Notes under the pieces: model-generated | What the model saw: the letters and a program-made list of their open reading frames with translations, nothing else | What the model was told of the DNA's origin: nothing | Databases searched by the model: none | DNA from: a virus | DNA: 64,000 nucleotides | IMG/VR virus record: IMGVR_UViG_3300032084_001540 | Coordinates: 1-64,000 of that record | Strand: one strand, 5' to 3' | Shown here: positions 11,529 through 36,561 of the stretch, piece by piece | Position numbering within the stretch: position 1 is the first letter of the stretch | How the letters are laid out: each line of letters starts with the position of its first letter | Made by a program: the position numbers and the translations under genes

Positions 11529-11536
11529 TATTTATT
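11529..11536 (-). promoter_or_regulatory. T4-late-like motif AATAAATA
   Basis: Located about 20-28 bases before the 176-residue gene, followed by AGGAGG; overlaps the stop of the 1315-residue fibre gene. Confidence 0.55.
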
Positions 11537-15522: not shown

Positions 15523-15530
15523 TTATTTAG
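15523..15530 (-). promoter_or_regulatory. Late-like motif CTAAATAA
   Basis: Located 40 bases before the giant fibre start and overlapping the stop region of the oxygenase gene. Confidence 0.5.
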
Positions 15531-16195
15531 TCAAATCCAAACTCGAACCACCCTGTAGCAATATATTTAGTGCCTGTTAGAGGCATTAATCCTCTATGAG
15601 TGTGTGTAAAGTCTGCTGGCCATATCAATGTCTGACCTTTTTTTGGATTTATTCTCTTACATTGATACTTGAATTCTGTTTCTCCACCCTCAAAATCATC
15701 ATTGAGGTATGTCATAAAAGTTAGAACTCTTTCTTGAGTTCTTTTATTTGCCTGTTCAGTATGCCATGCATGAAATCCCTGACCAGCTCTAGTTTTTTGC
15801 AATTTGAGTCCAAAAGGAGCAATATCAAAATCCTCTAGGATACTAAAAACATTACTATATTTCTCCAAACATATTTTTAAAAAATTTATATATTTTACAT
15901 TACAAACACTTAAGTAAGTCTCCGCAACATTAAATTGCTCTTCCGATCCTTTATCTGGGGGGTGAAATCCTTTCTGATGTAAATGAAACTGAGAGTCTTC
16001 AATTTTATGTGGAGAACATGGTCTCTTCATACATAACCCAACATGCTCTGCAAAATCTACATTTTCGACCATAGTGTCCCAGATAGGATCTAATCCTTCT
16101 GGATCAAATTTTCCTATAAATCCATCATATGCATGATTAACTCGAACATGATCAATTGAATCATGTTCGGGTTGCCAATTAAAGTGTTCTTTCAT
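15527..16195 (-). CDS. 2OG-Fe(II) oxygenase, prolyl-4-hydroxylase-like
   Basis: The 222-residue protein has GQGFHAWHTEQANKRTQERV with probable iron ligands H145-x-E147, then FEGGETEFKY, and a distal FTHTHRG (H198 or H200) followed by K210, which would hold 2-oxoglutarate. This is the P4H double-stranded beta-helix layout, with Glu in place of the more usual Asp. Such enzymes hydroxylate Pro or other residues using O2 and 2OG. It sits between the 1563-residue structural gene and the giant fibre, suggesting that a virion protein is the substrate (inference). A weak TTGAAG-17-GATTAT lies at 16243-16271. Confidence 0.8.
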   Translation of the reverse strand: MKEHFNWQPEHDSIDHVRVNHAYDGFIGKFDPEGLDPIWDTMVENVDFAEHVGLCMKRPCSPHKIEDSQFHLHQKGFHPPDKGSEEQFNVAETYLSVCNVKYINFLKICLEKYSNVFSILEDFDIAPFGLKLQKTRAGQGFHAWHTEQANKRTQERVLTFMTYLNDDFEGGETEFKYQCKRINPKKGQTLIWPADFTHTHRGLMPLTGTKYIATGWFEFGFD

Positions 16196-16203
16196 AAAAT
16201 AAG

Positions 16204-19200
16204 TTATGCTTGAGATTCAGTCCAGTTTAGAGTACAGTAAACATAATCTGTACCAATAGTCCAGTCTTCAACGTCAATCTTTGCTACAACAGTAAGAATA
16301 TCAGGTCCTTCGGGGAATGTCAAGTTTCCACCAACAATAGAGTTTCCAAGGGGTGCAAGAGCTGTTAAGTCAGAAGTAACTCGGTTGGTGTCAAGGTTGA
16401 TACCAAAGATCTTGTCTCCACCTTTAACAACATCAGAACCTGATGCGTTATGTAAGAGGAATTGTGAGATTGATGGGAGATCATTACCCGTAAAATCATC
16501 AAAAGAGTTTCCAAGTCTAGTATTAAGTCTCAAGTCAATAGAGCACTCTTTACTTGCCACCATATCAATTCTTTGGAGTTGCAGTTGCATTCGATTAATA
16601 ATGTCTCTTTGACCGAAAAGACCAGCAACACCAGAGTCAACAGAAGGGGCAAGTCTAACAGAAAGAATCGGGAACTCAATACTCTCAAATGCAGAGAGTT
16701 TTCCACCAATATTTGCCGAGTTTGATAGTTCAATCGATGCTCTCTGGAAATGAGTGGCAGCACTACTAGTACCAGCACCTCTAGTACATCCATTCAACTT
16801 GTATTTTTTAAAGAAGGTTCCTGCCTGAGTCGTAAATGTTCCATCACTCGTGATGCTAGTAAATGTAACTAGCTCATCGCCAACATACAGGGTATATGTG
16901 CTGTCCACATTGTCAAAGTAATTAGGAGCCTGGTTAGTTCTGACATCAATCGTGGTCTCACTGTTAGTGAGATTCTCGCCAAGAGTGCCATAGAATGTGT
17001 TAATCACAGTAGCAGAATCCTGCTCGCCAGTTGGGAAGATCTTTCTGGAGGTTTTGTTAAACAAATATGCCTGATCATCTTCAAATTGACCGTCCATGAT
17101 TACAGATACACCCCAATGTGCGAGTCTAGGAGCATAGTTAGATGATGATGTATTCTCAACTTCATATCTACTAGGTAAGTTACCAGAACGGAAGTAAGCA
17201 ATAACTTCCTTATTGTTGTGAATCATTCTATGTGCATATTTAACTTTGCCGTTTGTATCCTTGAATCCGAATCTAATAGTACCAGCACCATACCAAGAGT
17301 AATCGATATATGCCATCTGAATTCTTGATAGCTCCAGAACATAACCAGATGGACCACTTCCATCCATTCTATCAATATTCCATTCGGTTTGTGGAACTCT
17401 AAGTTCCTCAGTTTTAATAGGAATAATACCACCAACAGATTCGCTTCTAAATTCTGGAGTTATTTCAATTTCAGAGTCAGAATTGATATTTTGAATTTTA
17501 TATGTTGTTCCACGAAGAACAATTTTATCACCAATAATAAGTTGCTCACTAAATCTAGTATCTGTTCCACTTATAATGTTAGAACCTTTTGTTCCTGAAA
17601 CCTTACCAGACAACTTAACGGTAGAATTTCTTCTCACAAAGAAAATTTGAGTGCCATCAAATTCAAAGTACATTCCATTTTGGAAGTCAAACATTCCTGA
17701 TCTAAGAGCAGAACCAGTCCAATTAGGAACATAAGATCTGACAAGACCACTGGAAGTAAGTTGTGTGGCTTCTGAAGTTCCAAGACTAACCGCTAGAGTT
17801 CTTGGGTCATAAACTTCAATGACTTTAAGTTCTTGATCACCACCATAAACATTAAATCCAGATGCTACAGTGGCACCGATAGTAACGATAGATGGCATCG
17901 CATAATCTGAGATAGAAGAAATACCATGTGGGAACTTATATTTTACAAGTCCTCTATAGAAACTACCAACACCAACACCACTCATGGATTCGGAAGAGAT
18001 TCCAAATGCTTGGGTTCCAACTGTATGTGCCGATTCAGATGTACCGTTTTGTGCTCTAGCAGCAATAGTCAATCCAAGAGAGTTGATTCCAGAATAGTAG
18101 AATTCTTCACTATCAATCTTTACGATACCAGTAGTTCCAAATCCAACAGTGGAGTCGAGTGCTAACAGAGTCGTAGATCCAGAACCAGGAACTGCTTCAG
18201 CAATTGCTTGTCTTGGATATCCAATAAGATCAATATCAGTTGGTGGCTTGAAGTTAACAGCAAAACTGATTTGCAAACCTTTACCAGATTGATACCTAAA
18301 ATACTTTCTGGTCTGACGGATCATCTGAGCACCCTTAAATGGTTGGTTGGTTGCGATTTCCATGCCACCGTCAAAAGGTCTATGTTGTGCATAACCTTCA
18401 GATCTAGGAACCAGTCGAGTTGGAATAAAGAAATTAGTTCCTGTCGAAAGACCAGAACTGATGTCGGCATCCATTGTTGCAATAGTATCTGAAGCAACAG
18501 CACTGATTTCTCTTTGATATCTTGTTCCAGCAGTAACTCCCGAAACAGTGAATTTATGATCATTAGCAACAGTAGACATATCTGTTGTTGCTACTTCTAC
18601 TGTATCGCCAGTAGTACCAGTTCCTTGACCAGCAAGATGTTTTAATCCAAATGTGTTGTTTGTATATCTTAAAACTTCATAAGTCTTGCCATCAGTAAGT
18701 CCATTGATTGGGTTTCCACCAGAGGCAACTTCATATAAAACTTGGTTTCCGCTAGAGAATCCATGATCATTAATTGATATAATATCTTTTCTACTGTCAA
18801 TCAGCCATCTCCTCAGTCTTGTTTTGTAAGTCTTAACTGTAGAACTAGTTACATTAACAAAATCAGTCAATGCTGGATTGAATGACATACGGAATGATTG
18901 TCCATCACCAGAAACCGAGTGTAGATAATAAAGAGAAGTACTGATACCAGGCATGTTGGAGTGGGAGCTCCCAGTTGTAAATCTGTTATTTGCATCTCTA
19001 TATCTTTTTCCTGTATAATCAAAGTTTTCTTGAGCCTGAGAGCCAGTGCTAAATCCTCTGTAGTCGATAATTTCTCCAATAACCCATGGTCCTCCATTTG
19101 CAGTAGTCGGTTCAGCAGCAGTACCACCAGAACCATTTCCAAATGTCATGAAATCATTTGTTGTATTTCTAGCATTTTCATAGATAGCATTATCAGCACC

Positions 19201-20895
19201 CCTTCTACCAACTTGTGATGATGGGACAGGTGCTTGCATCGATGCAGAAAAACTTCCGCTAACGTCATAGATGACAATTTGATCACCAATCTTAATATCA
19301 GAAAGGAATTTTGAACCAGAACCAGATAACTGTGACTGATTACTAACAGTAGAAACGCCAACAGTACCAGTTCCTTGCTTCAAACCACTAACGTGTTTGA
19401 ACTTAAATTGATGGAATTGTGTTTTTGCAACATGAGCAGAACTAGTGAGATCAATGGTTGTGCCTGCAGATGCGTCTGCTGAGGAACCTGCAAGAGAGAA
19501 ATAGTCCTGACCTTTAGATACGGTGAAGTATACATCACCCTTGTTCAATCCGTCTAGTGCTGTATTTGCAGTGCCAGTAGTTCCATATTCATTTAGATTT
19601 GGTTCATAAATCAACATCTGACCTTCAATAAATCCATGATTCGGAGAATAGAATGGAGATCCAGTGATAGCAGTGGTAATACCAGTGGCAGCAGAAGCAA
19701 CATAAACAGTTAGAGATTGCTCAGAAACTGTTGTAGTTGAAGCCACAGATACAGTAGTGTCATTCAATACTTCATTAATATTGTATGTGTCATCAGCAAC
19801 GCCATCTCTAGTACCAAAGAGATAAACTGGGAAACTTGTAGATAGTGGATTTTTAGTTTGTGTTTTGATAAAAATCTCACTTCCTGGAGAAGATCCACCA
19901 TCAGTAAAAGCACCAATGATTGAACTTACCTTATGATTACTTCCGCTACCACCGCTGAGAGAAATTCTAGATCCATCTTTAGAAGTTGAGAGAGCAAAAG
20001 TATTGGAAGTAATATAATCAACATAATATAGACCTCTAGAATCAATGCCAACAATGTCAGCACCGCCACCGTGAGTATATTGAACTATATCATTATTAAC
20101 AAGTCCATGATTAGACTTAGTAATAATGTTTTCATTAAGGTCTGTTGATGGAGTAAATGTGACCTGAACAGATGTATTGAATAGTTTTAGGTCGGAGATA
20201 CTAAAAAATTCTCCAACGTATACTTGAGTATATGGTTCTTTGGCGTTTGCGTAGTCTTCGATACTTGGGTTCGATAGTTTAAACTTGAATGTATTGATAC
20301 CAACAAGACTATCAACAACAAATGCACCATCAACTGCGTTATCTTTAGTTGCTCTGATGTCAATTGGAAATCCAACAGAAAGTCCATGAGACGATGCTGT
20401 TGAGACTGTAACAACAGTAGAACCAGATTCAACTGCAATTGTTTCTACATCTGAGATGAGAGAGTCTGTTCTAGTAAAGAATAGAGGAATATTTTCTACA
20501 AGTTCAATAGTTTCCCATTTAGTTGTCTGTGGACCATACTCAAAGTCCGTATCAACCAGAGTGTTAGGATTAGATACACGAATCTTACTAACTGGGTCAA
20601 TCAGTGCTTCGACAGGTTCAAATTCTACAGATGCCTTATCGTAGTAGATTTGAAGCTCATCGCTGTCTGACATCCCTGTGGTGTCATATACGAGAACAAT
20701 AGTAGTGTCGCCAGTATTATCATCATACGATACTGAAGATGCTCCAAGATTTACATTGGAGAAATTATAGATGATCTTACCATCAGTTACATTTGTAATG
20801 AGAAGTAATTCTTTTTGCGAGATAAATTCATCTCGAATAATGATGGTCTTCTCAGATGCATCGAATGTGTAGTTAAAGAGTAACTTCTTTGACAT
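16204..20895 (-). CDS. Giant virion structural protein, 1563 aa
   Basis: It opens MSKKLLFNYTFDASEKTIII. Several copies of a beta module follow with the pattern HGL-xx-G-x-V-x-Y then YYV/F-x-L: near residues 165-215, 255-320, 410-480 and 715-770 (examples: SNHGLVNNDIVQYTHGG; NDHGFSSGNQVLYE). The later half is less repetitive. It belongs to the large cyanomyovirus appendage proteins without a T4 counterpart. Its position next to fibre and adaptor genes suggests the baseplate periphery or the whisker/fibre base. No enzymatic motif seen. Confidence 0.8.
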   Translation of the reverse strand: MSKKLLFNYTFDASEKTIIIRDEFISQKELLLITNVTDGKIIYNFSNVNLGASSVSYDDNTGDTTIVLVYDTTGMSDSDELQIYYDKASVEFEPVEALIDPVSKIRVSNPNTLVDTDFEYGPQTTKWETIELVENIPLFFTRTDSLISDVETIAVESGSTVVTVSTASSHGLSVGFPIDIRATKDNAVDGAFVVDSLVGINTFKFKLSNPSIEDYANAKEPYTQVYVGEFFSISDLKLFNTSVQVTFTPSTDLNENIITKSNHGLVNNDIVQYTHGGGADIVGIDSRGLYYVDYITSNTFALSTSKDGSRISLSGGSGSNHKVSSIIGAFTDGGSSPGSEIFIKTQTKNPLSTSFPVYLFGTRDGVADDTYNINEVLNDTTVSVASTTTVSEQSLTVYVASAATGITTAITGSPFYSPNHGFIEGQMLIYEPNLNEYGTTGTANTALDGLNKGDVYFTVSKGQDYFSLAGSSADASAGTTIDLTSSAHVAKTQFHQFKFKHVSGLKQGTGTVGVSTVSNQSQLSGSGSKFLSDIKIGDQIVIYDVSGSFSASMQAPVPSSQVGRRGADNAIYENARNTTNDFMTFGNGSGGTAAEPTTANGGPWVIGEIIDYRGFSTGSQAQENFDYTGKRYRDANNRFTTGSSHSNMPGISTSLYYLHSVSGDGQSFRMSFNPALTDFVNVTSSTVKTYKTRLRRWLIDSRKDIISINDHGFSSGNQVLYEVASGGNPINGLTDGKTYEVLRYTNNTFGLKHLAGQGTGTTGDTVEVATTDMSTVANDHKFTVSGVTAGTRYQREISAVASDTIATMDADISSGLSTGTNFFIPTRLVPRSEGYAQHRPFDGGMEIATNQPFKGAQMIRQTRKYFRYQSGKGLQISFAVNFKPPTDIDLIGYPRQAIAEAVPGSGSTTLLALDSTVGFGTTGIVKIDSEEFYYSGINSLGLTIAARAQNGTSESAHTVGTQAFGISSESMSGVGVGSFYRGLVKYKFPHGISSISDYAMPSIVTIGATVASGFNVYGGDQELKVIEVYDPRTLAVSLGTSEATQLTSSGLVRSYVPNWTGSALRSGMFDFQNGMYFEFDGTQIFFVRRNSTVKLSGKVSGTKGSNIISGTDTRFSEQLIIGDKIVLRGTTYKIQNINSDSEIEITPEFRSESVGGIIPIKTEELRVPQTEWNIDRMDGSGPSGYVLELSRIQMAYIDYSWYGAGTIRFGFKDTNGKVKYAHRMIHNNKEVIAYFRSGNLPSRYEVENTSSSNYAPRLAHWGVSVIMDGQFEDDQAYLFNKTSRKIFPTGEQDSATVINTFYGTLGENLTNSETTIDVRTNQAPNYFDNVDSTYTLYVGDELVTFTSITSDGTFTTQAGTFFKKYKLNGCTRGAGTSSAATHFQRASIELSNSANIGGKLSAFESIEFPILSVRLAPSVDSGVAGLFGQRDIINRMQLQLQRIDMVASKECSIDLRLNTRLGNSFDDFTGNDLPSISQFLLHNASGSDVVKGGDKIFGINLDTNRVTSDLTALAPLGNSIVGGNLTFPEGPDILTVVAKIDVEDWTIGTDYVYCTLNWTESQA

Positions 20896-20896
20896 T

Positions 20897-21316
20897 TCAG
20901 AAACCTAAAGCGATTGTGAGAGCGGTAAGATAATCAGTGTAACTATTGCCGTCAAGAAAATAATCACCGTTGGTATTTATATTCCCTTGAGCAGTAATGA
21001 TGCCAGTGACGCTTAAATCACCATTCAATGTTTGATTTGAGTTACGTCCCATGACATCAGCAACTCTGAAGTCTTCGATAACAGCAAATTCAATGATATC
21101 TCCTAACGTAGCAGGAGATGTAAGTGTGCAAGAAGAACCGTCTAAAGCAGTATAATCTACACCAGTTACAAGTTTTACACCGTTTCTATAGACATCAAGG
21201 TGTGGGACTTTATATCCACTAGTTACAGTAAATACTGTCTGACCTGCTGTCGCAGTAACATTTAATCTTGCGGATTGATTATTGTTAGTAATCCTAATTG
21301 GGTTTCCGATTCCCAT
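20897..21316 (-). CDS. Small tail-appendage protein with fibre anchor domain
   Basis: From ATG 21314-21316 (MGIGNPIRITNNNQSARLNV) it has 139 residues. Residues ~15-95 match, position by position, the amino-terminal domain of the S74 fibre: ATAGQTVFTVTSGY, VYRNGVKLVTGVDYTA, IIEFAVIEDFRV. A short shaft segment follows (NGDLSVTGIITAQGN). I infer that it docks on the same site as the S74 fibre or caps it. Confidence 0.75.
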   Translation of the reverse strand: MGIGNPIRITNNNQSARLNVTATAGQTVFTVTSGYKVPHLDVYRNGVKLVTGVDYTALDGSSCTLTSPATLGDIIEFAVIEDFRVADVMGRNSNQTLNGDLSVTGIITAQGNINTNGDYFLDGNSYTDYLTALTIALGF

Positions 21317-21351
21317 TGCTGGCACTCCCTGCAACGACCGTTAGCTAAAAA

Positions 21352-21359
21352 CTATTTAG
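21352..21359 (-). promoter_or_regulatory. Late-like motif CTAAATAG
   Basis: Located about 36 bases before the 139-residue gene, next to the stop of the glycine-rich gene. Confidence 0.45.
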
Positions 21360-21361
21360 CA

Positions 21362-24031: not shown

Positions 24032-25428
24032 TATAGTCCAACGAATTGAAATCTTGCGGATCCATCACCACCATCACTTCCATCGGCAGAGGTTCCTCCA
24101 CCTAAAGATCCACTGATGCAGAATTTAGTTCTGGTGACAATATCTTTATTTAGATAACCTGAGCCACCTCCACCACCACCTTCAAAGATAGCAACGTTAC
24201 CAGCTTTTCCACTATCTCCACCATACCAACCAGCGCCGCCTCCTCCACCTGACATTTTTCCAGTAACATTTGTTCCGCCACCATATAGTTTTCCACCATC
24301 CTTTCTGCCACCAAAACCAGATCTTGTTTGTGTTCCACCACCACCACCTCTTGATGGTGCATTTTTAGCATTTCCTCCAATTAAACCACCACCATTACCA
24401 CCTTGTCCATCTTCGTCAGAGTTACGACGACCAGATCCTGATCCACCACCGCCTCCAGCGATTAAAATAGCATTGTTTGTATTAACTTCTCCTTCAAAAA
24501 TACCACTATAACCACCACCAGCACCACCATCTTCTGTTCCAGACCATCCACCACCTGGATAACCACCTTGAGCGATTGGTTGCCCACTTGCTTTACCTTT
24601 TCCTCTTTCTCCACCTGCTGCAACAATTAAAGTATACTCAATGCCTTTCTTGAGAGTAAATTGCCCCTGAGCACCTCCACCAGTTCCGCCTTTTCTTTTA
24701 GAAACAGATCCATCAGGATCCTGATTATCATTAAATGCCAAGAACTTTCCAGTGTTGGGTGTATTAGAACTACCACCAGCAGCACCGCCACCACCACCAA
24801 CTAAAAATACTTGCAATTTGATATCTGATCTTGGAGTTACTATATAAGTCCCTCTTTGAATTCCAAAATTCAGAACCTTTCCATCAAGTTCAAAGTTCCA
24901 TGATGTAATAGTTCCACCAATAGCAGGAGAGACAGAAATAGTATTGTCAAGATCTTCTGTCACGGAATCTGGTTGAGTTATAACACTGATAAGTGGTTTA
25001 ACTTGCAAATTAACAATAGTAGAATTCAGGGGAGAATTAACTGCCCTTGGTGCAAAAGTAGAAACTCCAGATTGAGCGACATTAAAAGATCTAGAGTCTG
25101 GATAAAATATAGCTTGCTGAAAATAATTTGTATCATCAGAATCACTATTCAAATTACTTAGGGATAGTGATTCTCCTGAACCAACAATTGCATCTCTAGT
25201 AACTCCTCCACCAAAATCTCTGTCTTTTTGATACCAAACATATCCAATTGTACCTACACCAGCACTATACCCAGAAGGATATACGACTGTTGCAATCCCA
25301 GTAAAAGACACCGATCCGCTGAATCCAATGGAAGCGGATGGTGACTCTGGTTGTGTTTGATAGACTAGAGATGGTCTGTTAATATCAACATAAGAGTTGA
25401 AATGTCTGAATCCTACTGCCAAACTCAT
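24031..25428 (-). CDS. Glycine-rich adhesin-like tail protein, 465 aa
   Basis: The amino half looks like one or two Ig-like domains (IGFSGSVSFTGIATVVYPSG; TVSTITSW-type strands). From about residue 210 (DIKLQVFLVGGGGGAAGGSS) it becomes a glycine-rich domain with repeated GGGGG and GGGGGAGWYGG, the same signature as in the larger neighbour. No VWA motif is seen. The two are likely paralogues over this region and may form one adhesin. It overlaps both neighbouring genes by a few bases. Confidence 0.75.
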   Translation of the reverse strand: MSLAVGFRHFNSYVDINRPSLVYQTQPESPSASIGFSGSVSFTGIATVVYPSGYSAGVGTIGYVWYQKDRDFGGGVTRDAIVGSGESLSLSNLNSDSDDTNYFQQAIFYPDSRSFNVAQSGVSTFAPRAVNSPLNSTIVNLQVKPLISVITQPDSVTEDLDNTISVSPAIGGTITSWNFELDGKVLNFGIQRGTYIVTPRSDIKLQVFLVGGGGGAAGGSSNTPNTGKFLAFNDNQDPDGSVSKRKGGTGGGAQGQFTLKKGIEYTLIVAAGGERGKGKASGQPIAQGGYPGGGWSGTEDGGAGGGYSGIFEGEVNTNNAILIAGGGGGSGSGRRNSDEDGQGGNGGGLIGGNAKNAPSRGGGGGTQTRSGFGGRKDGGKLYGGGTNVTGKMSGGGGGAGWYGGDSGKAGNVAIFEGGGGGGSGYLNKDIVTRTKFCISGSLGGGTSADGSDGGDGSARFQFVGL

Positions 25429-28400: not shown

Positions 28401-31349
28401 TGGGAAGAGATCTGAAACATTCTGACTGAAAGAATCGGCAGTAAATGGAGATATTGTGGGTTTGACACTTGCATTCAAAGCAACAATATGATAAACACCA
28501 TCCTGAACTGAAGGAATATGCTTTCTTACTTCTCTACTTTGGTAGATATAGTAAGTATTGCTATATCTCTTTCTTCTAACATGTGCAGTTTCTTCAATAG
28601 TTCTTACAGAAGTATCATTGGTAAGATCGCCTGGATCAGTAGAAAGACCGACTGTAAATCCTCTGGCGCTAGTGATTCCAGTAACAATAAAGTCTCTGTT
28701 GAATCCAGTAGCAGCAACACCAGTAATGTTTTCAGAACTCTTTGCGTTAATAATTTCGATTGTGTTTCCAACATCAAAACCATGAGGAACTTCAGTTACG
28801 ATGTTGGCAATATTATTTGCCCAGTCAGCTTTGGAAACAAATTTAAAGTTTCTCTGATCAGAGAAGTTTGTTATAGATGTCGCAGTAATTTCAGTGTCAT
28901 CATCTGCTAAAGTATCACTAGATTCCTGGATTACATATCCCTCAAGAGGAGGTCTAGCAGAAGAGATGCCAGCTGGAATGACATATCTGAGTTTGTATAA
29001 ACGATCATCAAGACTTCTTGAGTCTGGTTGTCTTACAATGAATGATCTTGGAGTGGCAGAACCAAGTCCTGTTGTTCCTACACCAATAGGACCAGCAATG
29101 TGAGTGAATAGAGTATTTTCTGTGCTAGCAGTTCCTACACTAACATACCAATTTCTTTGATTGGTATCGAATTGTACTGGGTGTCCAAGTTCACCAGGAG
29201 TCTTATCAGAAACTCTGGAAATAACCTTTAGAGTTCCACCAAGACTGTTAATGGAAATCTCCTGCCCATTTAATGCTTCATTAAGTGTCTTAGCAATTTT
29301 CAGAGAATCTGTTCCAACACCAGAAGTAATTGCAAAGTAAAGAGTATTCTCATCGATTCCGTCTGGAAGCTGACCAGTATCAGACTCAAATCTGACCGTC
29401 TCACCCTCAGATAACTGATGATACTGATTTAAAGCAATAATATTAGAAGTAATACTATTAACGCCAGACACTCTGCCTACAGTATATCTTTTCTCTGCAC
29501 TTACCTCATTTGAAGTGTTTGCTGTGTTACCAAAAATGACCTTAGCGTTATATCTCTGAAGATTGCCAGATACAGGAATCAAGCAGTTAAGATCTTCATT
29601 AATCTTTGCACCAAGTCTATATCCCTCAATATTCGTTCTAGGAGGAACTTGTGAGTTTGTTTCATTCAGAAGATATAATCTAGAAGTTGAACCAACACCA
29701 ACTGTTGTTTCTACGTCAATAGCAGCAAATTCAAGTGTTTGCTCTTCAATATCTCTAATTTTTGGTGGAATGATGTGGGAAATATAACCGACATCATCTC
29801 TACTGAATGCTGATTCTTTAAATCCCTGTGCTACAAAAGCGTGTGATCCAAAGTTGGAGTTTGAGTTCGTGATGGATTGATCTCCACCAGACTCAGCAAG
29901 GAAGTGTTGCTCAAAACCAACACCAAAGATGTTAACTGCCTGAATAAAGGCATCGTTACTGGTCTTAATGTGGAAGTTTCTATATGCTGGTTTGTAAACA
30001 GCAGAAGAATTTGACTGAATATTATCAATACTGGTGGAATCATCATAGATGGCACTACCACTATTATATTTGATGAAAGCATCATTATCTTTTTGCAGCG
30101 AGATTCCAGTGAATCCAGCAACAGTCATCGCTTTGAAACCGTCTGCTTTTTTGCCATCAGCGTGCATACCACACATGCCGTAGACAGATCTCATTGTGAC
30201 ATCTTTCACATACGGAGATGCTGATGTTACTGTATCGACAGCAAGGCTAATAGTTGCGTTTGCTGGATTTTCAAGGGCAGTACCAGGGTTATTACTCACC
30301 TTGTACTGGAACTCGGTTGTGCTGGTCACACCAGAGACAACCTGCTGACCGTTGTAACCACCTGCGGTGATGCCCTCGACCAGAATAGCAGTATCTACAT
30401 CAAGTCCCTCTAGAGGAGCAGATAGGTTGACTGTGACAGTGGTGGTAGCAACGACACCATCACCTGATTTTATACTACTGATGCCAATTTCACCACCGCG
30501 TGGTCCAACAATACGATATTCATCTACCTTAGTCTGAATATCAACCGTTCCAGCAGGGAAGTCAGGTTCAATGGCACGACCAGAATCTTGGTCATATACG
30601 TCTCCAACCTTTTGATAGTAAACATCCAGGTCAGTTTTTGAGTCAGAGAACTGCAGAATCTCATCATTGATATCAATGTTATTGACACCATCAGCAAATT
30701 CAAATAAAGTTAGTTTATTGTGAGAGAAGTTAGGTACAAAAGTATTCTCGGTATAATCCTTAAATACTCTTCCGTTTGGATCACCATCAAATACAGTGAA
30801 CTGAGTAATAAAACATGAACCCGTCAGTCTAAAAATTGCTGATCTAGCAATATTATCGTTTGATGGGCTAGGAATAAATCTTGGACGAATCTTTGTCTTT
30901 CTTTGATCCAAACCAACAATAGAAGTACCACGAGGAATAATTACTCCACCGTGAACAGAGTTAAGTTTATAAAGATCATTACCTGCTGTTGTGACATCAA
31001 AGTTAGAGGTCAGAGAATATGGTGTAATAATTAGACCATTTGTTCCTGCCCTATTATAATATCTTACGTTATTTCCTTCCGCATATGGGATCCAACCTGG
31101 ACGATTATCAACAATATGATCTCCTGGATAGAGAACGATAGTTGTTTGGGCAAATCTATCGTTATCTTGACCAGATTGATATGAAAATCTTGCTGCTTCA
31201 ATTAGGGCTCTTTGGATAGACTTGAAAGGACGGGTAAGTGAATTACCTTGGTTTTCAATACTATCAGTAGAATCAATATCGTTCGGGTTTACATATAAAA
31301 CATTTCCCTTAGCATTCTTCAGGAAGTTTTGTAGACGACTGAGAGGCAT
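25425..31349 (-). CDS. Giant tail structural protein, 1974 aa
   Basis: The opening MPLSRLQNFLKNAKGNVLYV, followed by an LYVNPNDIDSTDSIENQGN-type segment, recalls very large appendage proteins of cyanomyoviruses. Residues ~40-530 look like a right-handed beta-helix (for example AVNIFGVGFEQHFLAESGGD). Three HGL/HGF-type modules follow in the middle (EVPHGFDVGNTIEI; GGNHGLTANNVIRI). The last ~450 residues contain fibre repeats (LGIGTTRPDFDLHVANN) and a terminal domain ending ASLYGVTGGQNFS. It is probably a major baseplate appendage. It is the longest gene here. Confidence 0.8.
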   Translation of the reverse strand: MPLSRLQNFLKNAKGNVLYVNPNDIDSTDSIENQGNSLTRPFKSIQRALIEAARFSYQSGQDNDRFAQTTIVLYPGDHIVDNRPGWIPYAEGNNVRYYNRAGTNGLIITPYSLTSNFDVTTAGNDLYKLNSVHGGVIIPRGTSIVGLDQRKTKIRPRFIPSPSNDNIARSAIFRLTGSCFITQFTVFDGDPNGRVFKDYTENTFVPNFSHNKLTLFEFADGVNNIDINDEILQFSDSKTDLDVYYQKVGDVYDQDSGRAIEPDFPAGTVDIQTKVDEYRIVGPRGGEIGISSIKSGDGVVATTTVTVNLSAPLEGLDVDTAILVEGITAGGYNGQQVVSGVTSTTEFQYKVSNNPGTALENPANATISLAVDTVTSASPYVKDVTMRSVYGMCGMHADGKKADGFKAMTVAGFTGISLQKDNDAFIKYNSGSAIYDDSTSIDNIQSNSSAVYKPAYRNFHIKTSNDAFIQAVNIFGVGFEQHFLAESGGDQSITNSNSNFGSHAFVAQGFKESAFSRDDVGYISHIIPPKIRDIEEQTLEFAAIDVETTVGVGSTSRLYLLNETNSQVPPRTNIEGYRLGAKINEDLNCLIPVSGNLQRYNAKVIFGNTANTSNEVSAEKRYTVGRVSGVNSITSNIIALNQYHQLSEGETVRFESDTGQLPDGIDENTLYFAITSGVGTDSLKIAKTLNEALNGQEISINSLGGTLKVISRVSDKTPGELGHPVQFDTNQRNWYVSVGTASTENTLFTHIAGPIGVGTTGLGSATPRSFIVRQPDSRSLDDRLYKLRYVIPAGISSARPPLEGYVIQESSDTLADDDTEITATSITNFSDQRNFKFVSKADWANNIANIVTEVPHGFDVGNTIEIINAKSSENITGVAATGFNRDFIVTGITSARGFTVGLSTDPGDLTNDTSVRTIEETAHVRRKRYSNTYYIYQSREVRKHIPSVQDGVYHIVALNASVKPTISPFTADSFSQNVSDLFPQVDRDNPTSDPTESKSFAKSGLIGKVVTNDLTKSITKETAIKFWKDSGVGIALTNIHSNVVTGTGHTLWVRPDHGLNGVTAVSIASSGAGYGSGSAGDVFNVELVGNDVGINALAKVTVDAVGGITNVTITDAGSAWGIGQTANLISGITTTGFAQASVQVTGINTNYGDGIRISGIKSESYRGYNELYQITGITTRSIRVSSASSVINCVTSLGSTIVSDASASVTGQSVGINSITYDPRSGVATITSGGNHGLTANNVIRIVGTAATTFNNDVPVLDVVGVTTFTTRIGVGSELPFVATLLDSDSKVLRTGFAAQDGNITNNEENTGGRMVPIYAGITTTLAATIPNTSATTISVTNFSSSGLRKGDFIIVDDEIMRISNDSGSSVFRGTLGTKSSSHQVNSTIRKIKVIPSEVRRVSLNRSSGHTFEYLGFGPGNYSTSLPSKQDKVLSGVERLLSQSVDRDGGKNVYTGMDNEGNFYIGNVKTNPQTGKDETFNTPVPTVKGENITLGEEEVGFDILTPDEVNVTRKISVTGGEDSDILSEFDGPVVFSKKVTFNGKNGIEANSIFIQGDATISRNVGISTTTPTIAGSPGDVKFFASPSAGGYAGWVYTVDNDWYRFANVSTSSTENVSQLDRLGIASAAGPGAAELVIGLDNVEEYSAGYDAAQRDGLIVAIGGSLGIGTTRPDFDLHVANNIFAAGFITATTYLYGDGSRINNLPNDSLWVPNDTVGGAKIGVHTIADRFVGIGSTQPDASLSIGLSTTSTDKAFVIKSGFTTEFVGVDTNGRVGILKPNPQGLLDIGGQFISTQFSLDGSSGIGTIFAGIVTASESLYVGQGNTTAISAGSTGHVGVGTSGTRADLDVDGRVRFKSHFQPAHPTSIVNNVVSIELDQANTFTLSVVDAVTNFQLSNPPGEASNFTVKVVQDAIGHQVGIDSFKDADGNIIPVYWSNGIVPQVSVGVNQEDIYSFFTFDGGASLYGVTGGQNFS

Positions 31350-31379
31350 CGGTTTATTACGAACAGGATGGTGCTTTTC

Positions 31380-31387
31380 TTATTTAG
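31380..31387 (-). promoter_or_regulatory. Late-like motif CTAAATAA
   Basis: Located about 31-38 bases before the 1974-residue gene, in the divergent intergenic region 31350-31434. Confidence 0.5.
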
Positions 31388-31405
31388 ACGGGTAAGAAAG
31401 ACGAA

Positions 31406-31413
31406 AATAAATA
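31406..31413 (+). promoter_or_regulatory. T4-late-like motif AATAAATA on the plus strand
   Basis: Located 22-29 bases before the plus-strand gene at 31435. It is back-to-back with the minus-strand motif at 31380. Confidence 0.5.
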
Positions 31414-31434
31414 TGTGCATATAGAAGATGTAAA

Positions 31435-32223
31435 ATGCCCGAAATACCAGATATATCAAATAACGATATTAGTATCAGATCGATCCAAATAAAGGATGTA
31501 AATAATTGGATATTATCTCCATCACAATCTATTCCACCTGTAGTCCCAGTGACGCAAGTGATCGGACTTCCCATTGTCAACATACCTGGATGTGTTGAGG
31601 CAACTGAAACTAATAGTTCTAAAAATAATCAACTACGTGAGGATGATCCAAATGGCACCGTTACATTTTGCGATTCTGGAGTGCCAAGTTTCAGTACTAT
31701 AAATTATGAACCAGACCAGATGGTGTTCACTGGAGAGGCAAAAGTTCCAAATGTGAAACCACCAGAAGCACCTAAAACATCAGGTATAAAACCAGTACCA
31801 GTGCCTTCAACACCACCGATGACCGCAAAGCAAGAATGCCCAACCAGGGAGCAGCAACTAAAAAACCCTATAGGAAAAGTCCTTAAGGGTAATAAAAAGA
31901 TTACTGGATATGAGTTGGTTGGCAAAGAATGTCTAATGGTTACAGAAGATTTGACCATTCCAGATCAGATAATTGGTAGTATACCAAATGCAGGAATGGT
32001 GACAACTACAGCATCTATTGCCCTTGTGGCAACGACCTCGGCACTGCTTGCAAAACCTCTTGCTGACCTTTTGTTAAAAGTGGTGAAACCGACTGTGAAG
32101 AAGGTAGTGAAGAAGATTGCCTCCTTACGGGGTAAGAAGATCCAGGTATTGTCGAAAGTGGAGCGCCAATCTGAGCAGAGGATACGGAATCACGCGATTC
32201 GTCAACTGCGGGGGAAGGAATAG
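31435..32223 (+). CDS. Cyanophage structural-type protein with a hydrophobic segment, 262 aa
   Basis: One of five genes on the plus strand. It begins MPEIPDISNNDISIRSIQIK and contains IGLPIVNIPGCVEATETN, a pattern I recall from conserved but unassigned cyanomyovirus proteins. A Pro-rich middle (VPSTPPM) follows, then a hydrophobic helix around 185-210 (ASIALVATTSALLAKPLADL) and a very basic end (KKVVKKIASLRGKK...). The last 209 bases overlap a minus-strand gene tail to tail. A membrane- or DNA-contact role is possible. Confidence 0.75.
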   Translation: MPEIPDISNNDISIRSIQIKDVNNWILSPSQSIPPVVPVTQVIGLPIVNIPGCVEATETNSSKNNQLREDDPNGTVTFCDSGVPSFSTINYEPDQMVFTGEAKVPNVKPPEAPKTSGIKPVPVPSTPPMTAKQECPTREQQLKNPIGKVLKGNKKITGYELVGKECLMVTEDLTIPDQIIGSIPNAGMVTTTASIALVATTSALLAKPLADLLLKVVKPTVKKVVKKIASLRGKKIQVLSKVERQSEQRIRNHAIRQLRGKE

Positions 32224-33031
32224 TATGTCTATGTTGAGGAACGATACCTCCAGGGTTCGTAACAACCACATCCGCACACACTTTATGATATGGAGACTTC
32301 TTGTGGAAATAGATGCCCTCCTTCTTGAGTTGTCCACAATTCTTGAGTCTGGCAAGCTCAAAATCTAATCTTTTATTAGCATTCTGTTGTTGCATCAATG
32401 CAATATTTGCTCGTGCTGCATCTTTACAAAGTTCTTGTGCCGTCTTATCTAAAGGTGTGGACCATGTGATAGAAAACCCTACACCTAGACTGTAGTTATC
32501 TTTCTGTCCTGTCCTAGTTTTCTTGGTGAATAATATGTCACCAGGATTGTCAATAATACCGTCCCCAATGTCATTCCCATCAGCATCTAAGGCACCAAAG
32601 TTATCGCTGACATCATATACTGGATCGTCAAAGTAAGGTTCATATGGTTTAGAAGCAGACGCACTTCCTGTTACATAAGGGGTGAAGTTGCGAGTTGCAC
32701 CCTGACACTGGATTCCAGCTCCATAAGTGTTAGTAATATATGGACCTTGTAAAACCTGAATGGCTTGATTGGTAACTGAGCCAGAGCTATTCGCAACGGG
32801 TGATGCTGTTGCCGATACGCCTCCAATGGTTTCAGCATTAACTGGTGATGCTACAAGAGCAGCAACTACTGGGAGAAAATACTTGTAGTGTCGGTTGCGC
32901 TTTCGACCTCCGTTACTCTTTGAATAATTGTTTGATTTTGAAGACCTGGACCAGAGTAAGTTTCTGTAAACTGAAACGCTGCCCCTGGCACTGTTTGCAC
33001 GAACACTGGTTTGCTCGTTATTCCTGTCCAT
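32015..33031 (-). CDS. Exported protein with internal signal-like segment, 338 aa
   Basis: The first ATG (33029-33031) precedes a 47-residue Ser/Asn/Arg-rich stretch and then YKYFLPVVAALVASPVNA, which looks like a signal peptide cleaved after VNA. The mature part contains FTPYVTGSASASKPYEPYFD, a helical segment ALMQQQNANKRLDFELARL and a Ser/Pro-rich end. The gene overlaps its upstream neighbour by 166 bases in another frame. A GGAGGT lies close to the signal-peptide region but no ATG, GTG or TTG follows it in frame, so either the long amino end is real or the start is non-canonical. The carboxyl 70 residues overlap the plus-strand gene. Confidence 0.6.
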   Translation of the reverse strand: MDRNNEQTSVRANSARGSVSVYRNLLWSRSSKSNNYSKSNGGRKRNRHYKYFLPVVAALVASPVNAETIGGVSATASPVANSSGSVTNQAIQVLQGPYITNTYGAGIQCQGATRNFTPYVTGSASASKPYEPYFDDPVYDVSDNFGALDADGNDIGDGIIDNPGDILFTKKTRTGQKDNYSLGVGFSITWSTPLDKTAQELCKDAARANIALMQQQNANKRLDFELARLKNCGQLKKEGIYFHKKSPYHKVCADVVVTNPGGIVPQHRHTIPSPAVDESRDSVSSAQIGAPLSTIPGSSYPVRRQSSSLPSSQSVSPLLTKGQQEVLQAVPRSLPQGQ

Positions 33032-33303
33032 GAAGATGTCACTCCATCAATAGTTACATTAGTTGCCCCAGTTGTAGGGGATAAATTTCCATTCACTGTG
33101 ATACCACTACCAGTAGCAGAATACTGATACCCAGTGTTATAGTCCATCGAATTTATGGTCTCAGTTATCTTCTGAGTGGTCTCAGTTCTTGAGGTCATAG
33201 ACCCTTGGGTAAAATTTGGGACCACGGGGACTGCAGATGCAGCAACCCCATGGAGAGCACCAAGAATCAACCCGAGACCGATTGCTTCTTGAAACCTAGT
33301 CAT
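32866..33303 (-). CDS. Exported beta-rich protein, 145 aa
   Basis: It begins MTRFQEAIGLGLILGALHGV with cleavage likely after AAS-A (signal peptide), followed by a Thr/Ser/Gly-rich mature region. GAAFQFTETYSGPGLQNQTI aligns with GSAFSFTEAFNAGDAIPSNT of the upstream exported protein, so the two are probable paralogues. Export through the host Sec pathway is inferred. The start lies 3 bases downstream of its neighbour's stop. Confidence 0.7.
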   Translation of the reverse strand: MTRFQEAIGLGLILGALHGVAASAVPVVPNFTQGSMTSRTETTQKITETINSMDYNTGYQYSATGSGITVNGNLSPTTGATNVTIDGVTSSWTGITSKPVFVQTVPGAAFQFTETYSGPGLQNQTIIQRVTEVESATDTTSIFSQ

Positions 33304-33306
33304 GAT

Positions 33307-33795
33307 TTACTTAACGTAGATTTCAGACACAAATTGACCCGTTGCAGACGTGCCTGCCCCGCCTGCAGTCAAGGACATAGAGCCAGCAGAATCGATGCTA
33401 CCAGCGAGAGTACCAGCCACGCCACCAGCAGTGGTTGTGACACTTCCAAACGCGGGCAAGGAGGGAGCGACACCACTAGTGATGGTTGTATTACTTGGAA
33501 TTGCGTCTCCTGCATTGAATGCTTCTGTAAAGGAGAATGCAGATCCGTCTGTTGTTTGTGAGTATGAACCTGCGGACAGAGTTGCCGCTGCGGTTGTGCT
33601 TCCAGGTGCCGTAAGTCCACCCAAAGTGGAAGCTGAGATGTTAGAACCACTTACAGAGTATGATGAACCTAGTCTAGTTGCTTGAGATGCAGCTGCATCA
33701 ACTGTCAACTGAACACTAGTCGATAGTTTAGTAGTAATATCGGCATGTGCAGGTGCCGTCATCAGAATCATTACAAAAGGCAAGAACCTTTTCAT
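33307..33795 (-). CDS. Exported beta-rich protein, 162 aa
   Basis: A clear signal peptide opens the protein: MKRFLPFVMILMTAPAHA, with cleavage before DITTKLST. The mature chain has no Cys and is Ser/Thr/Ala/Gly-rich, like a secreted or outer-layer beta protein. It shares its core with the next gene downstream. It has its own late-like motif GATAAATA 27-34 bases upstream, so it may be made late with the virion parts. Confidence 0.75.
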   Translation of the reverse strand: MKRFLPFVMILMTAPAHADITTKLSTSVQLTVDAAASQATRLGSSYSVSGSNISASTLGGLTAPGSTTAAATLSAGSYSQTTDGSAFSFTEAFNAGDAIPSNTTITSGVAPSLPAFGSVTTTAGGVAGTLAGSIDSAGSMSLTAGGAGTSATGQFVSEIYVK

Positions 33796-33821
33796 TTAAA
33801 AACGAGTCTACACTGTTGATT

Positions 33822-33829
33822 TATTTATC
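33822..33829 (-). promoter_or_regulatory. T4-late-like motif GATAAATA
   Basis: Located 27 bases before the exported protein gene at 33795 and just upstream of the oxygenase stop. Confidence 0.5.
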
Positions 33830-34412
33830 AAGCTCCATGTTTGACTGCTTGCTCTAAAGAGACTTTACCATTTTTAGGAAGCATGACCATATTGGCAGCA
33901 AATGTCTTTCTCGTCTCATCACTGTTATGTGGTGTAACACCATGGCACATATAAGATGGGAAAAATATAATATCACCTGCTTTGATTTCTGGATACACAG
34001 CAGTGCTAAATCCCATTGCTTGACACCAAGATTCTGTTGTCTGAATGAGATTTCTATCCCAAAAGTAAAATTCAGAAAAATCTGGACCGTCGTTTAAATA
34101 GAACACACAGGAGAGATCATTTCCACCATGATCATGAACTTCTTGAAAGAATCCTCTATTGTAAAAATTCAACCAAGGATGTGAGAGAATGAAACTCATC
34201 TCCTCCTTAAAATTCTTCTTAACAATGTTTATACTCGGCGTCAGATATTGAGCATACTCTTTCCAATTTAATTTTGTTCTTTCTATCTTACATGCGTCAC
34301 CCCATGTATAATCATCGTTCTTATTAGGGACAGAGTTTAGTTTATCAATAAATTGTTGTGCATTTGGTGCTTGAAACTTCCAATAAAAATTTGTTTCAAA
34401 AATAGTTTTCAT
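33828..34412 (-). CDS. 2OG-Fe(II) oxygenase-like protein, 194 aa
   Basis: The core is FQEVHDHGGNDLSCVFYLND (H93-D94-H95), then PEIKAGDIIFFPSYMCHGVT (H157) and R168 in DETRKTFAANM. The order His-x-His/Asp, distal His, Arg fits small non-haem 2OG-Fe(II) oxygenases of the PF13759 type. The substrate is unknown. It starts within the stop of the preceding 64-residue gene, which has a sigma-70-like promoter, so it may be made before the structural proteins that surround it. Confidence 0.75.
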   Translation of the reverse strand: MKTIFETNFYWKFQAPNAQQFIDKLNSVPNKNDDYTWGDACKIERTKLNWKEYAQYLTPSINIVKKNFKEEMSFILSHPWLNFYNRGFFQEVHDHGGNDLSCVFYLNDGPDFSEFYFWDRNLIQTTESWCQAMGFSTAVYPEIKAGDIIFFPSYMCHGVTPHNSDETRKTFAANMVMLPKNGKVSLEQAVKHGA

Positions 34413-34606
34413 TAAATGCTGATATCGGAGTATACAAGTTCTTCATCAAGAACATCACGAACAAACGAATGTACTCTCATAAATTGATCAGTGGTATCAC
34501 AAGTTATTTTTTTAGTTTCACCATCGCTCGAATAGAGATAAAAAGTCTTTGCAGGAACATTGACCACACAACGGGTCAAATACACATCATTGTCTGTGAG
34601 ATCCAT
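34412..34606 (-). CDS. Small conserved hypothetical protein, 64 aa
   Basis: It has 64 residues, beginning MDLTDNDVYLTRCVVNVPAK, with a beta-rich core (KTFYLYSSDGETKKITCDTT) and a helical end. No family named. It overlaps the upstream gene by 20 bases and the next oxygenase start by one, consistent with a coupled pair. Its promoter-like site is at 34632-34660. Confidence 0.65.
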   Translation of the reverse strand: MDLTDNDVYLTRCVVNVPAKTFYLYSSDGETKKITCDTTDQFMRVHSFVRDVLDEELVYSDISI

Positions 34607-34991
34607 GATTTAGATAGTTTTTGACTTCTGTAGTATAGGACGGATGGGGTCTGGTGTCAAGAGCTCCATGCATCTTTTTAGTAAGTGTCACACGCTCCTC
34701 TCCCATGATCATGTCCACCATTCCAAGTTCATATTCTTGTCTGGTAACGACATAGAACCATGACTCAAAAAAACCATTTTGCTGTAATTTGGTCATTCTA
34801 TGGACACCATCCTCTAGAAGATAGTATCCGTTTTCAAAATCAATAACAATTCCTGGATATTTTGTCTCAGCTGCATCAACTATTTCTTGATGGATTGCTT
34901 TAGGATAACAAATTTTCCAATGAGGAATTAAAACTGCTTTTCTGTCATCATTAACTACTTTGTACGCTTTAGATGATTCCATCATACTCAT
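34587..34991 (-). CDS. Hypothetical protein with a ParB-like motif, 134 aa
   Basis: It contains YLLEDGVHRMTKLQQNGFFE, resembling the DG-x-HR signature of ParB/Srx-like nuclease folds, followed by SWFYVVTRQEYEL. This resemblance is short and may be convergent. The last 28 residues overlap a good sigma-70 promoter and the start of the next gene. The first ATG (34991) overlaps the stop of the upstream structural gene by 23 bases; a start at 34985 or 34982 is also possible. Confidence 0.6.
   Translation of the reverse strand: MSMMESSKAYKVVNDDRKAVLIPHWKICYPKAIHQEIVDAAETKYPGIVIDFENGYYLLEDGVHRMTKLQQNGFFESWFYVVTRQEYELGMVDMIMGEERVTLTKKMHGALDTRPHPSYTTEVKNYLNHGSHRQ
34632..34660 (-). promoter_or_regulatory. 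Sigma-70-like promoter, TTGACA-17-TATACT
   Basis: The -35 at 34655-34660 and -10 at 34632-34637 lie inside the coding end of the ParB-like protein gene. It is one mismatch from consensus and lies 26 bases before the 64-residue gene and the oxygenase that follows. Confidence 0.65.
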
Positions 34992-35877
34992 CCAATTGCA
35001 TCACTTCTTTAGCAGTATTTAATCTTTGTTTCTCAGCATTATTGCGAGCGATATTTCTATTGGATGCGTGAATTGCGATCTCAAAGTCTGTCTTGACATC
35101 TTTAATTTTTGAAAGTCCCTCAAGTTTGTCTGGATTTTGCAGCAGTCCTTGTCTCAGGACTATAATCTCATTTGCAAGAGTCGTGATTGATGACAAACAA
35201 GCAGCACAATATGTATTATTGCCTTGAAGTGCGAAAGGAGCAGATGCGATTGTCTCATAAACAACAGTCGTGGTTCCAGCAACTCCAGTTACACTGTTGA
35301 TTCCTGTATGGGTGGCAAGATCTTTGCCGTAGTAATGTCCCAAGTTTGTGACCGCAGAGTGACTGATGCCCCCTTGATCAGTGTCAACGCCCTTGGTAAA
35401 AGCGTAATCTGATCCAAAGGTTGTTCCAGTTTCGATACCACTATTCTGAAACTTACCAACAAACAAATAAGTTGTTACTCCGATACCAGATGATGCGTTT
35501 AAGACAATGCTGGTATCAGCATATAGATTGTCAACGTTGGCGTCATCAATATCATCAAACTTGAATGTAGCTAACTCATCCTCACGGATTCTAAATCTAC
35601 CTCCTGTATAACTATTATCCGTAGTTGTCCCAGAACCGCATCCAAGTTGATTAGCAGTTTGTCCAATCTGCAGAATTTGTGCCTTCTTCGTGTTGATCAG
35701 AGCAACATCAGTTTTGATCGAATCCTCAATCTTCTCAGCTGGATGCTTAAAATTGTCTCTAGTCGTACTAAACGCTGGGATTGATTGAGTGCTGGTGGTT
35801 GTATTGATATCCGTTAGGATGCCAACCTGAGTTTCGCAATGCTGAATCGCGTTAGATGAAAAAGTAGAGATTGCCAT
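34969..35877 (-). CDS. Structural-type hypothetical protein, 302 aa
   Basis: This 302-residue protein begins MAISTFSSNAIQHCETQVGI and has an Ala/Thr/Gly-rich beta middle (VVYETIASAPFALQGNNTYC) and long helices at both ends (LEGLSKIKDVKTDFEIAIHA). This suggests an elongated virion component. It lies one base after the stop of the oxygenase gene. No named family. Confidence 0.65.
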   Translation of the reverse strand: MAISTFSSNAIQHCETQVGILTDINTTTSTQSIPAFSTTRDNFKHPAEKIEDSIKTDVALINTKKAQILQIGQTANQLGCGSGTTTDNSYTGGRFRIREDELATFKFDDIDDANVDNLYADTSIVLNASSGIGVTTYLFVGKFQNSGIETGTTFGSDYAFTKGVDTDQGGISHSAVTNLGHYYGKDLATHTGINSVTGVAGTTTVVYETIASAPFALQGNNTYCAACLSSITTLANEIIVLRQGLLQNPDKLEGLSKIKDVKTDFEIAIHASNRNIARNNAEKQRLNTAKEVMQLDEYDGII

Positions 35878-36561
35878 TTAGAGTTGTCTCCATTGTGTGG
35901 GATGTGTGCATCCTTGGTGATGATTAAGATGTTCTGGCTTCAATGTAATTCTGATGTCTCCAGCAACTACAACACGCTCTCCACCTCTGTCTTCATAAAA
36001 CTTTTGAGTGTAGTGATATGTCTTACTAGGCATGATCACTATAGTTCCTTCGGCAGGAGTGATACTATATGTATTACAGTTGTAAATGTTTTGTTCTGTG
36101 ATTAGATTATTTTTTCCCGAATCAAATACAGATTCTATAAACTCGTTCTGATTTGACTTCTGTTGAATAATCAGTCTATCAGATTGCGGATTTGTCTTCA
36201 CATAATATATGAAACTCAGGTTTGCTTCATTATGAAAGTGTGGACTCAGAGATGGTGTCTCATTATCTTGATGCAGAGTCACCCAAGATTTTGTGACCAG
36301 AGCATTCAGTTTTTCAAAGTCTACTTGCATTGAATTTAGATAGCAGAAGACTGCTTCTTTAACTCCAGTAAACATGTCACGATAAGTATCATCATGATGG
36401 AGAAGAATACGTCCAGAGTATTCAGGACTCTCATTCTCATATCCATTGAACCAATACTTCTTAAGTTCCTCTAGGTGAGCATTCTTAAAGTTTTCATGTC
36501 CTTCAAAAATATGCTGATATATTACGAGAGGAAATAATGTATGAACTTTTCCTTGGGGCAT
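35878..36561 (-). CDS. 2OG-Fe(II) oxygenase-like protein, 227 aa
   Basis: It contains SPHFHNEANLSFIYYVKT (H108-x-H110), a distal H183 in PSKTYHYTQKF, and R196 in GGERVVVAGDIRITLK, the order expected for the 2OG-Fe(II) oxygenase fold (PF13759-like). It is distinct in sequence from the 15.5-kb and 33.8-kb enzymes. Its start is adjacent to the stop of the paralogous appendage protein, whose 3' end carries a promoter-like site. Hydroxylation of an appendage protein is a reasonable but untested role. Confidence 0.75.
   Translation of the reverse strand: MPQGKVHTLFPLVIYQHIFEGHENFKNAHLEELKKYWFNGYENESPEYSGRILLHHDDTYRDMFTGVKEAVFCYLNSMQVDFEKLNALVTKSWVTLHQDNETPSLSPHFHNEANLSFIYYVKTNPQSDRLIIQQKSNQNEFIESVFDSGKNNLITEQNIYNCNTYSITPAEGTIVIMPSKTYHYTQKFYEDRGGERVVVAGDIRITLKPEHLNHHQGCTHPTQWRQL

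Follow-up and report, generated by a model that had tools for sequence, protein, structure and literature searches.

Three 2-oxoglutarate-Fe(II) oxygenase genes in the structural gene block of a cyanophage, and a candidate host-type promoter within the codons of a tail gene

The closest described counterparts of the genes considered here are the auxiliary 2-oxoglutarate-Fe(II) (2OG-Fe(II)) oxygenases of cyanophages, divergent multicopy enzymes of two families (PF13640/PHROG 61 and PF13759/PHROG 81) encoded near gp5 and the tail fibre genes. Up to nine copies have been reported, and hypotheses invoking DNA repair and 2OG/nitrogen metabolism have been published (PMC9146016, PMC3037559, PMC2984593). 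Among the gene hot spots named by Sullivan and colleagues is one 'near gp5 with tRNAs' (PMC3037559). We analysed a window of 64,000 nucleotides (nt), positions 1 to 64,000 of the 64,418-base IMG/VR record IMGVR_UViG_3300032084_001540, which carries three oxygenase genes, g1, g2 and g3, from the same families and the same phage group. Neither the genes nor their clustering is unusual for cyanophages, and the three are new members of known families. Earlier reports stress proximity to uvsX and uvsY or 2OG/nitrogen metabolism, whereas the distinguishing feature here is a candidate promoter lying inside the baseplate gene that precedes g3.

Among characterised proteins, prolyl 4-hydroxylases (P4Hs) give the best profile and fold matches to g1 (B. 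anthracis 3itq, 5hv0 and 5v7y; the PBCV-1 viral collagen prolyl hydroxylase vCPH, 5c5t; Chlamydomonas 2jij; human PHD2 and LH3). The distal His and the Lys at +10 are kept in g1, but it has HxE instead of HxD, its template modelling (TM) scores are about 0.5, and no collagen-like substrate is encoded in the window. The Pseudomonas enzyme PPHD (4j25), a bacterial P4H-type protein with a non-collagen target, also resembles g1, although by profile it is further from g1 than the B. anthracis P4H; it hydroxylates elongation factor Tu (EF-Tu; PMC4543633). The TIGR02466-like proteins 3bvc (Roseovarius) and 2rg4 (Oceanicola) are the best sequence and fold matches of g3 and the best sequence matches of g2, and have H-x-H in common with them, but they are bacterial, uncharacterised and only about 13% identical to g3.

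All three oxygenase open reading frames (ORFs) are intact and lie on the minus strand where a first-pass annotation of the stretch had placed them. The features on which the argument turns are as follows.

15527..16195, minus strand: g1, P4H-type 2OG-Fe(II) oxygenase, 222 aa, PF13640 (Pfam E=7e-15), PHROG 61
33828..34412, minus strand: g2, PF13759 oxygenase, 194 aa (Pfam E=3e-14), PHROG 81
34412..34606, minus strand: DUF7294 protein, 64 aa, overlapping g2 by 1 nt
34632..34660, minus strand: candidate sigma-70-type promoter TTGACA-N17-TATACT, 11/12, 25 nt before DUF7294-g2 and inside the ParB-like gene
35878..36561, minus strand: g3, PF13759 oxygenase, 227 aa (Pfam E=1e-11), PHROG 81
36561..37337, minus strand: knob-type tail-associated protein, 258 aa, PHROG 17490, its stop codon overlapping the g3 start by 1 nt
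36588..36617, minus strand: candidate sigma-70-type promoter TTGACA-N18-GATAAT, 11/12, 26 nt before g3 and within the last knob codons

IMG/VR contains many close relatives of g3, at about 50% identity. The g3 start falls between -23 and +8 nt from the stop codon of the knob gene in 77 of 81 relatives, with an overlap of mostly 4 or 1 nt, and the usual order is hub, small spike, knob, g3. Many knob genes lack g3: at 51 of the 58 loci that have enough sequence, no oxygenase follows in the next 6 kb. The two groups differ at the knob C-terminus: the motif EYxGLTxxDYPGDN is found in all 63 g3-linked knobs, while its Leu-Thr pair (residues 241-242) occurs in just 6 of 88 others. When DNA was scanned blind for the motif, 104 GLT hits had enough sequence to judge, and g3 came immediately after the motif in 97 of them.

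The conservation extends to the codons. Leu241 is TTG in 61/63 g3-linked knobs, against 21% of Leu codons in the same genes, and Thr242 is ACA in 57/63, against 39% of Thr codons. Beginning 18 nt beyond this pair, Asp249 is GAT and Asn250 is AAT in every one of the 63, and synonymous codons vary elsewhere. Of the 63 linked loci, 53 have a site of 11/12 or better at the end of the knob gene, compared with 12 of the 88 unlinked loci and none of 148 control segments; the other linked loci score 8-10. The same TTGACA-N18-GATAAT arrangement stands 26 nt ahead of g3 in phage S-SCSM2R. The -35 and -10 hexamers just ahead of g3 are conserved across the 63 loci and their N18 spacing lies in the 16-18 nt range of sigma-70 promoters, and on this comparison the knob-tail signature is a predicted sigma-70-type promoter kept through codon choice. 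A small search of the cyanophage literature found no description of a promoter inside the codons of a preceding baseplate or tail gene.

Several further observations concern the knob and its tail. The promoter spacer is itself conserved at the codon level (Asp245 is GAC in 43/63, against a background of 19%, and Pro247 is CCA in 59/63) and may mark a further regulatory element. At one locus (L422, on a contig shared with L294) the order is knob, g3, knob, and the second knob also has a TTGACA site; a knob-type ORF also follows g3 at L217, with which L221 is grouped. A TTGACA-type knob tail without g3 directly after it was seen at L373, L394, L442, L443, L444 and L467, where presumably a different gene uses the promoter or g3 has been lost. 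A knob tree built without the tail had too few columns to resolve gains and losses, and the paired test on it (5 starred pairs, p=0.25) had no power. The knob domain at 36561-37337 represents a widespread cyanophage tail-associated family found also in a Flavobacterium phage tail-fibre-like protein, and no solved relative was detected by sequence.

In cyanomyoviruses early genes use host sigma-70 promoters and late virion genes use NATAAATA (PMC2984593). On the gene strand of the 64-kb window there are eight sigma-70-type sites of at least 11/12, where 1-3 are expected. Just two of them, before g3 and before DUF7294-g2, fall in the 45-kb structural block from 5.7 to 50 kb; the other six are outside it, in the replication and metabolic ends. 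Strong sites amount to 0.42 per 10 kb in the 4 kb upstream of g3 and 3.24 downstream, a 7.7-fold difference over the 63 loci. A strong site is present in the 110 nt before 19 of 40 DUF7294 relatives, compared with 0 of 88 spike or tail genes, and some g2 relatives also have an upstream site (11/12 in S-8S29 and P-SSM2, 10/12 in Bellamy). DUF7294 and g2 are probably co-transcribed. Late-type motifs (NATAAATA and CTAAATA) stand ahead of many structural genes, including those starting at 33795, 31349, 20895 and 15482, and the NATAAATA before the PHROG 564 gene indicates that late control resumes after g2. Since both candidate cassette promoters are of sigma-70 type, the published early/late scheme implies that g2 and g3 would be transcribed early, unlike the late virion genes.

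The profile scores of g1, g2 and g3 (56.1, 53.6 and 45.3 bits) are all above the curated Pfam cut-off of 27. The active-site residues are H145-x-E147, R156, H200 and K210 in g1 (HxE, H and K invariant in 29 rows), H93-x-H95, H157 and R168 in g2 (invariant in 13 rows) and H108-x-H110, H183 and R196 in g3 (invariant in 20 rows). The first-pass annotation had described three oxygenases with distinct residue sets; its genes, places and residues hold, but g2 and g3 belong to one family (PF13759/PHROG 81) with a single HxH...H...R signature, and g1 to another. The HxD/E...H iron triad is present in g1 as HxE...H, while g2 and g3 show an invariant HxH...H, as does 3bvc, and both arrangements differ from the textbook HxD. 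Because 3bvc and 2rg4, the sole solved proteins to which g2 and g3 match with confidence, have HxH too, the motif belongs to the family as a whole and does not mark the copies in the window as defective. Structures were predicted for g1 and g3 with predicted local distance difference test (pLDDT) values of 81 and 74, and the top PDB matches consist entirely of 2OG oxygenases and their uncharacterised relatives; both proteins are predicted to adopt the double-stranded beta-helix fold of the 2OG-Fe(II) superfamily.

In profile searches g1 matches prolyl 4-hydroxylases first (3itq, E=2.7e-18) and then PHD2, P3H1, LH3 and PiuC; a fold comparison with the predicted structure gives this set again, with the PBCV-1 enzyme among them. 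It has a basic residue at +10 from the distal His, as in P4Hs, and H200 and K210 are invariant; the HxD of P4Hs was not found in g1, all members of its clade having HxE. By sequence and predicted fold, g1 is a putative P4H-type peptidyl hydroxylase. No strong early promoter was found before g1, the only candidate being a 10/12 site at chance level. In S-PM2 and S-RIM32 a short tail fibre gene immediately precedes the g1 relative, the relatives in S-IOM18 and P-RSM1 are near gp3 and uvsY and are preceded by late-type motifs, and most metagenome relatives adjoin other oxygenases. Many of the relatives at loci L084-L163 are in tandem with one or two further oxygenase genes, which suggests multi-enzyme clusters.

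The window derives from a T4-like cyanomyovirus, as judged from its gene content (gp5-type hub/lysozyme, tail tube, head closure, single-strand binding protein, PhoH and thymidylate synthase) and from matches confined to cyanophages, including those of Synechococcus and Prochlorococcus. The block is encoded almost entirely on the minus strand. The gp5-type hub/lysozyme, tail fibres and virion structural proteins surround the oxygenases, together with Gly-rich proteins and short proteins whose sequences have signal-peptide-like starts. The remaining features are listed here.

11535..15482, minus strand: baseplate/tail-like protein, 1315 aa, downstream of g1
15530-15524, minus strand: CTAAATA late-like motif before the 1315-aa baseplate/tail-like gene
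16204..20895, minus strand: virion structural protein, 1563 aa, directly upstream of g1 with an 8-nt gap
16295..16323, minus strand: weak sigma-70-like site TTGACA-N17-TATTCT with TG, 10/12, 99 nt before g1, within chance
20981-20974, minus strand: TATAAATA before the 1563-aa structural gene
33822..33829, minus strand: NATAAATA late-type motif, 26 nt before the signal-peptide-bearing PHROG 564 gene
34587..34991, minus strand: ParB-like small protein, 134 aa
34969..35877, minus strand: 302-aa protein between g3 and the ParB-like gene
37334..38026, minus strand: upstream paralogue of the knob protein, 230 aa
38038..38604, minus strand: small spike-like protein adjoining the hub
38604..42035, minus strand: gp5-type baseplate hub and tail lysozyme, 1143 aa

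A homologue of the ParB-like gene adjoins g3 in phage S-SCSM2R and at 18 of 82 g3 loci. The 302-aa protein had no family match in Pfam or PHROG. Elsewhere in the window, two long ORFs on opposite strands, 31435-32223 (+) and 32015-33031 (-), overlap by about 200 bases, and the annotations of S-CAM22 and S-RIM44 include a comparable pair.

Phage records holding relatives number 428 for g1, 233 for g2 and 8 for g3. Single-protein scans of viral contigs gave no g1 or g2 relatives, and alignment queries were required. The two families account for 164 genes in 18 isolate cyanophage genomes, 4 to 21 per genome, of which 76 (46%) are within 50 kb downstream of gp5, where 41.7 (25%) are expected (rotation p=0.0002). 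The first-pass annotation had noted that the oxygenases lie among fibres, Gly-rich proteins and exported-type proteins, and both the neighbours and an enrichment near gp5 beyond chance bear this out. As controls, distances to gp5 were calculated from gene coordinates in the same isolate genomes for CP12, a Calvin-cycle regulator, and the phycobilin-related CpeT. Sixteen genomes have a CP12 match (one of these matches falls below the family cut-off), and in 12 of them the gene is no more than 3 kb from gp5; CpeT is within 10 kb in 15 of 15. The locus therefore routinely lodges metabolic genes, and because CP12 and CpeT share it, a baseplate and fibre neighbourhood is not specific to enzymes that act on the virion. 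Apart from further oxygenases, no conserved upstream partner of g1 or g2 was found. Collagen-like substrates were rejected as candidates, as no ORF in the window has a collagen-like Gly-X-Y run and the RN05-S knob homologues annotated 'collagen' lack one. An isolated collagen-like ORF (L175, 2515-4152; 545 aa, 41 Gly-X-Y triplets) lies near a g2 relative.

The account that we consider probable is that the three oxygenases are ordinary cyanophage auxiliary enzymes of two subfamilies. A small non-structural cassette (g3, the 302-aa protein, the ParB-like gene, DUF7294 and g2) would have the late genes for the baseplate hub on one side and those for the fibres on the other, and would be read as two units, one from g3 onward and one comprising DUF7294-g2, each from a host-type sigma-70 promoter buried in the preceding coding sequence. 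Host RNA polymerase would transcribe both units early, ahead of virion protein synthesis, and g2 and g3 would most likely oxidise a host target, either a protein or a small molecule, during takeover. The P4H-type g1 would probably be read through from the late structural operon, and may act on a protein either of the virion or of the host, in the latter case perhaps a translation factor. Several points weigh against this account. Because the loci are related, the binomial p values treat them as more independent than they are; the stronger argument for the promoter is the frozen synonymous sites. Late-type motifs also rise downstream of g3, from 1.90 to 7.61 over the 63 loci, and the island is therefore mixed, not purely early. 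No strong site was found within 200 nt of the g2 relatives in S-CAM8, MS29, P-RSM4, Syn30 and S-RIM4, and an early promoter does not prevent late read-through into the same gene. The promoters are recognised by comparison between loci, the substrates of all three enzymes are putative, and the presumed hydroxylase activity of g2 and g3 has to accommodate an HxH that departs from the usual HxD/E.

The first-pass annotation had proposed that the oxygenases hydroxylate Pro, Lys, Asn or Asp in fibres, adhesins or exported proteins as a virion modification system. The enzyme class and the placement stand, and the proposal gains from the enrichment beside fibres, the likeness of g1 to P4H, PHD2, LH3 and vCPH, the short tail fibre gene before g1 relatives in S-PM2 and S-RIM32, and the linkage of g3 with the tail-associated knob. 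The argument from placement to function, however, is undone by CP12 and CpeT in the same locus, and the early-type promoters of g2 and g3, the absence of collagen-like repeats from the window, and the g1 relatives that lie between gp23 and gp3/uvsY, beside sugar-nucleotide genes or, in metagenomes, mostly beside other oxygenases, make such a system distinctly unlikely. A narrower version, in which the knob tail EYxGLTxxDYPGDN is the peptide substrate of g3 and enzyme and substrate are encoded side by side, would explain the near-restriction of Leu-Thr to linked knobs, and the motif passed the independent scan. As a g3 recognition motif it was ruled out as the leading explanation by the codon analysis, since its residues are fixed at codons that spell a promoter, with synonymous sites frozen; moreover, unlinked knobs that retain Leu-Thr retain TTGACA where inspected, and the paired test on the tail-free tree had no power. 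We regard it as very improbable.

A tentative alternative, to which we give appreciable weight, is that the region between gp5 and the fibres is a recombination hot spot and that the oxygenases are cargo unlinked to their neighbours, with roles in DNA repair or in the 2OG pool under nitrogen stress. The published hot spot and hypotheses cited above, oxygenase genes beside uvsY and uvsX, and CP12 and CpeT at the same location all agree with it, but g3 is not free-floating, the same junction being kept in nearly all relatives, and the PDB and fold matches of g1 are P4H-type peptidyl hydroxylases, with no AlkB among the matches listed. For g1 alone, the bacterial P4H and PPHD structures among its matches (4j25; 5v7y, described as 'interacts with and modifies elongation factor Tu') and the reported hydroxylation of EF-Tu by PPHD point to the host translation machinery; given TM scores of just about 0.5, a clade with HxE and not HxD, and a presumed late read-through that suits an early takeover role poorly, we think this target unlikely. 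It is nevertheless as plausible that g1 modifies a host protein such as EF-Tu as that it acts late on a virion protein, which it could do. The virion idea stays alive for g1 owing to its likeness to prolyl and lysyl hydroxylases, the 8-nt gap to the structural gene and the lack of a strong early promoter, and g1 is the sole one of the three for which virion hydroxylation would be a reasonable proposal. The specific combination of a late g1 prolyl/lysyl hydroxylase modifying the adjacent upstream virion protein with early, host-directed g2 and g3 seems to us quite improbable. To our knowledge, a virion-protein hydroxylase of the g1 kind would be the first case in a tailed phage.

Phage 2OG oxygenases are very common. 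Position within the structural modules of cyanophages is a poor guide to gene function. On the probable account, enzymes with their own promoters are lodged in a late block, one of these promoters being spelled by codons of the tail gene before it, and the search for a virion hydroxylase is narrowed to g1. The direct prediction is that g3 and g2 would be expressed early, and the promoter in the tail-gene codons is the part worth following.

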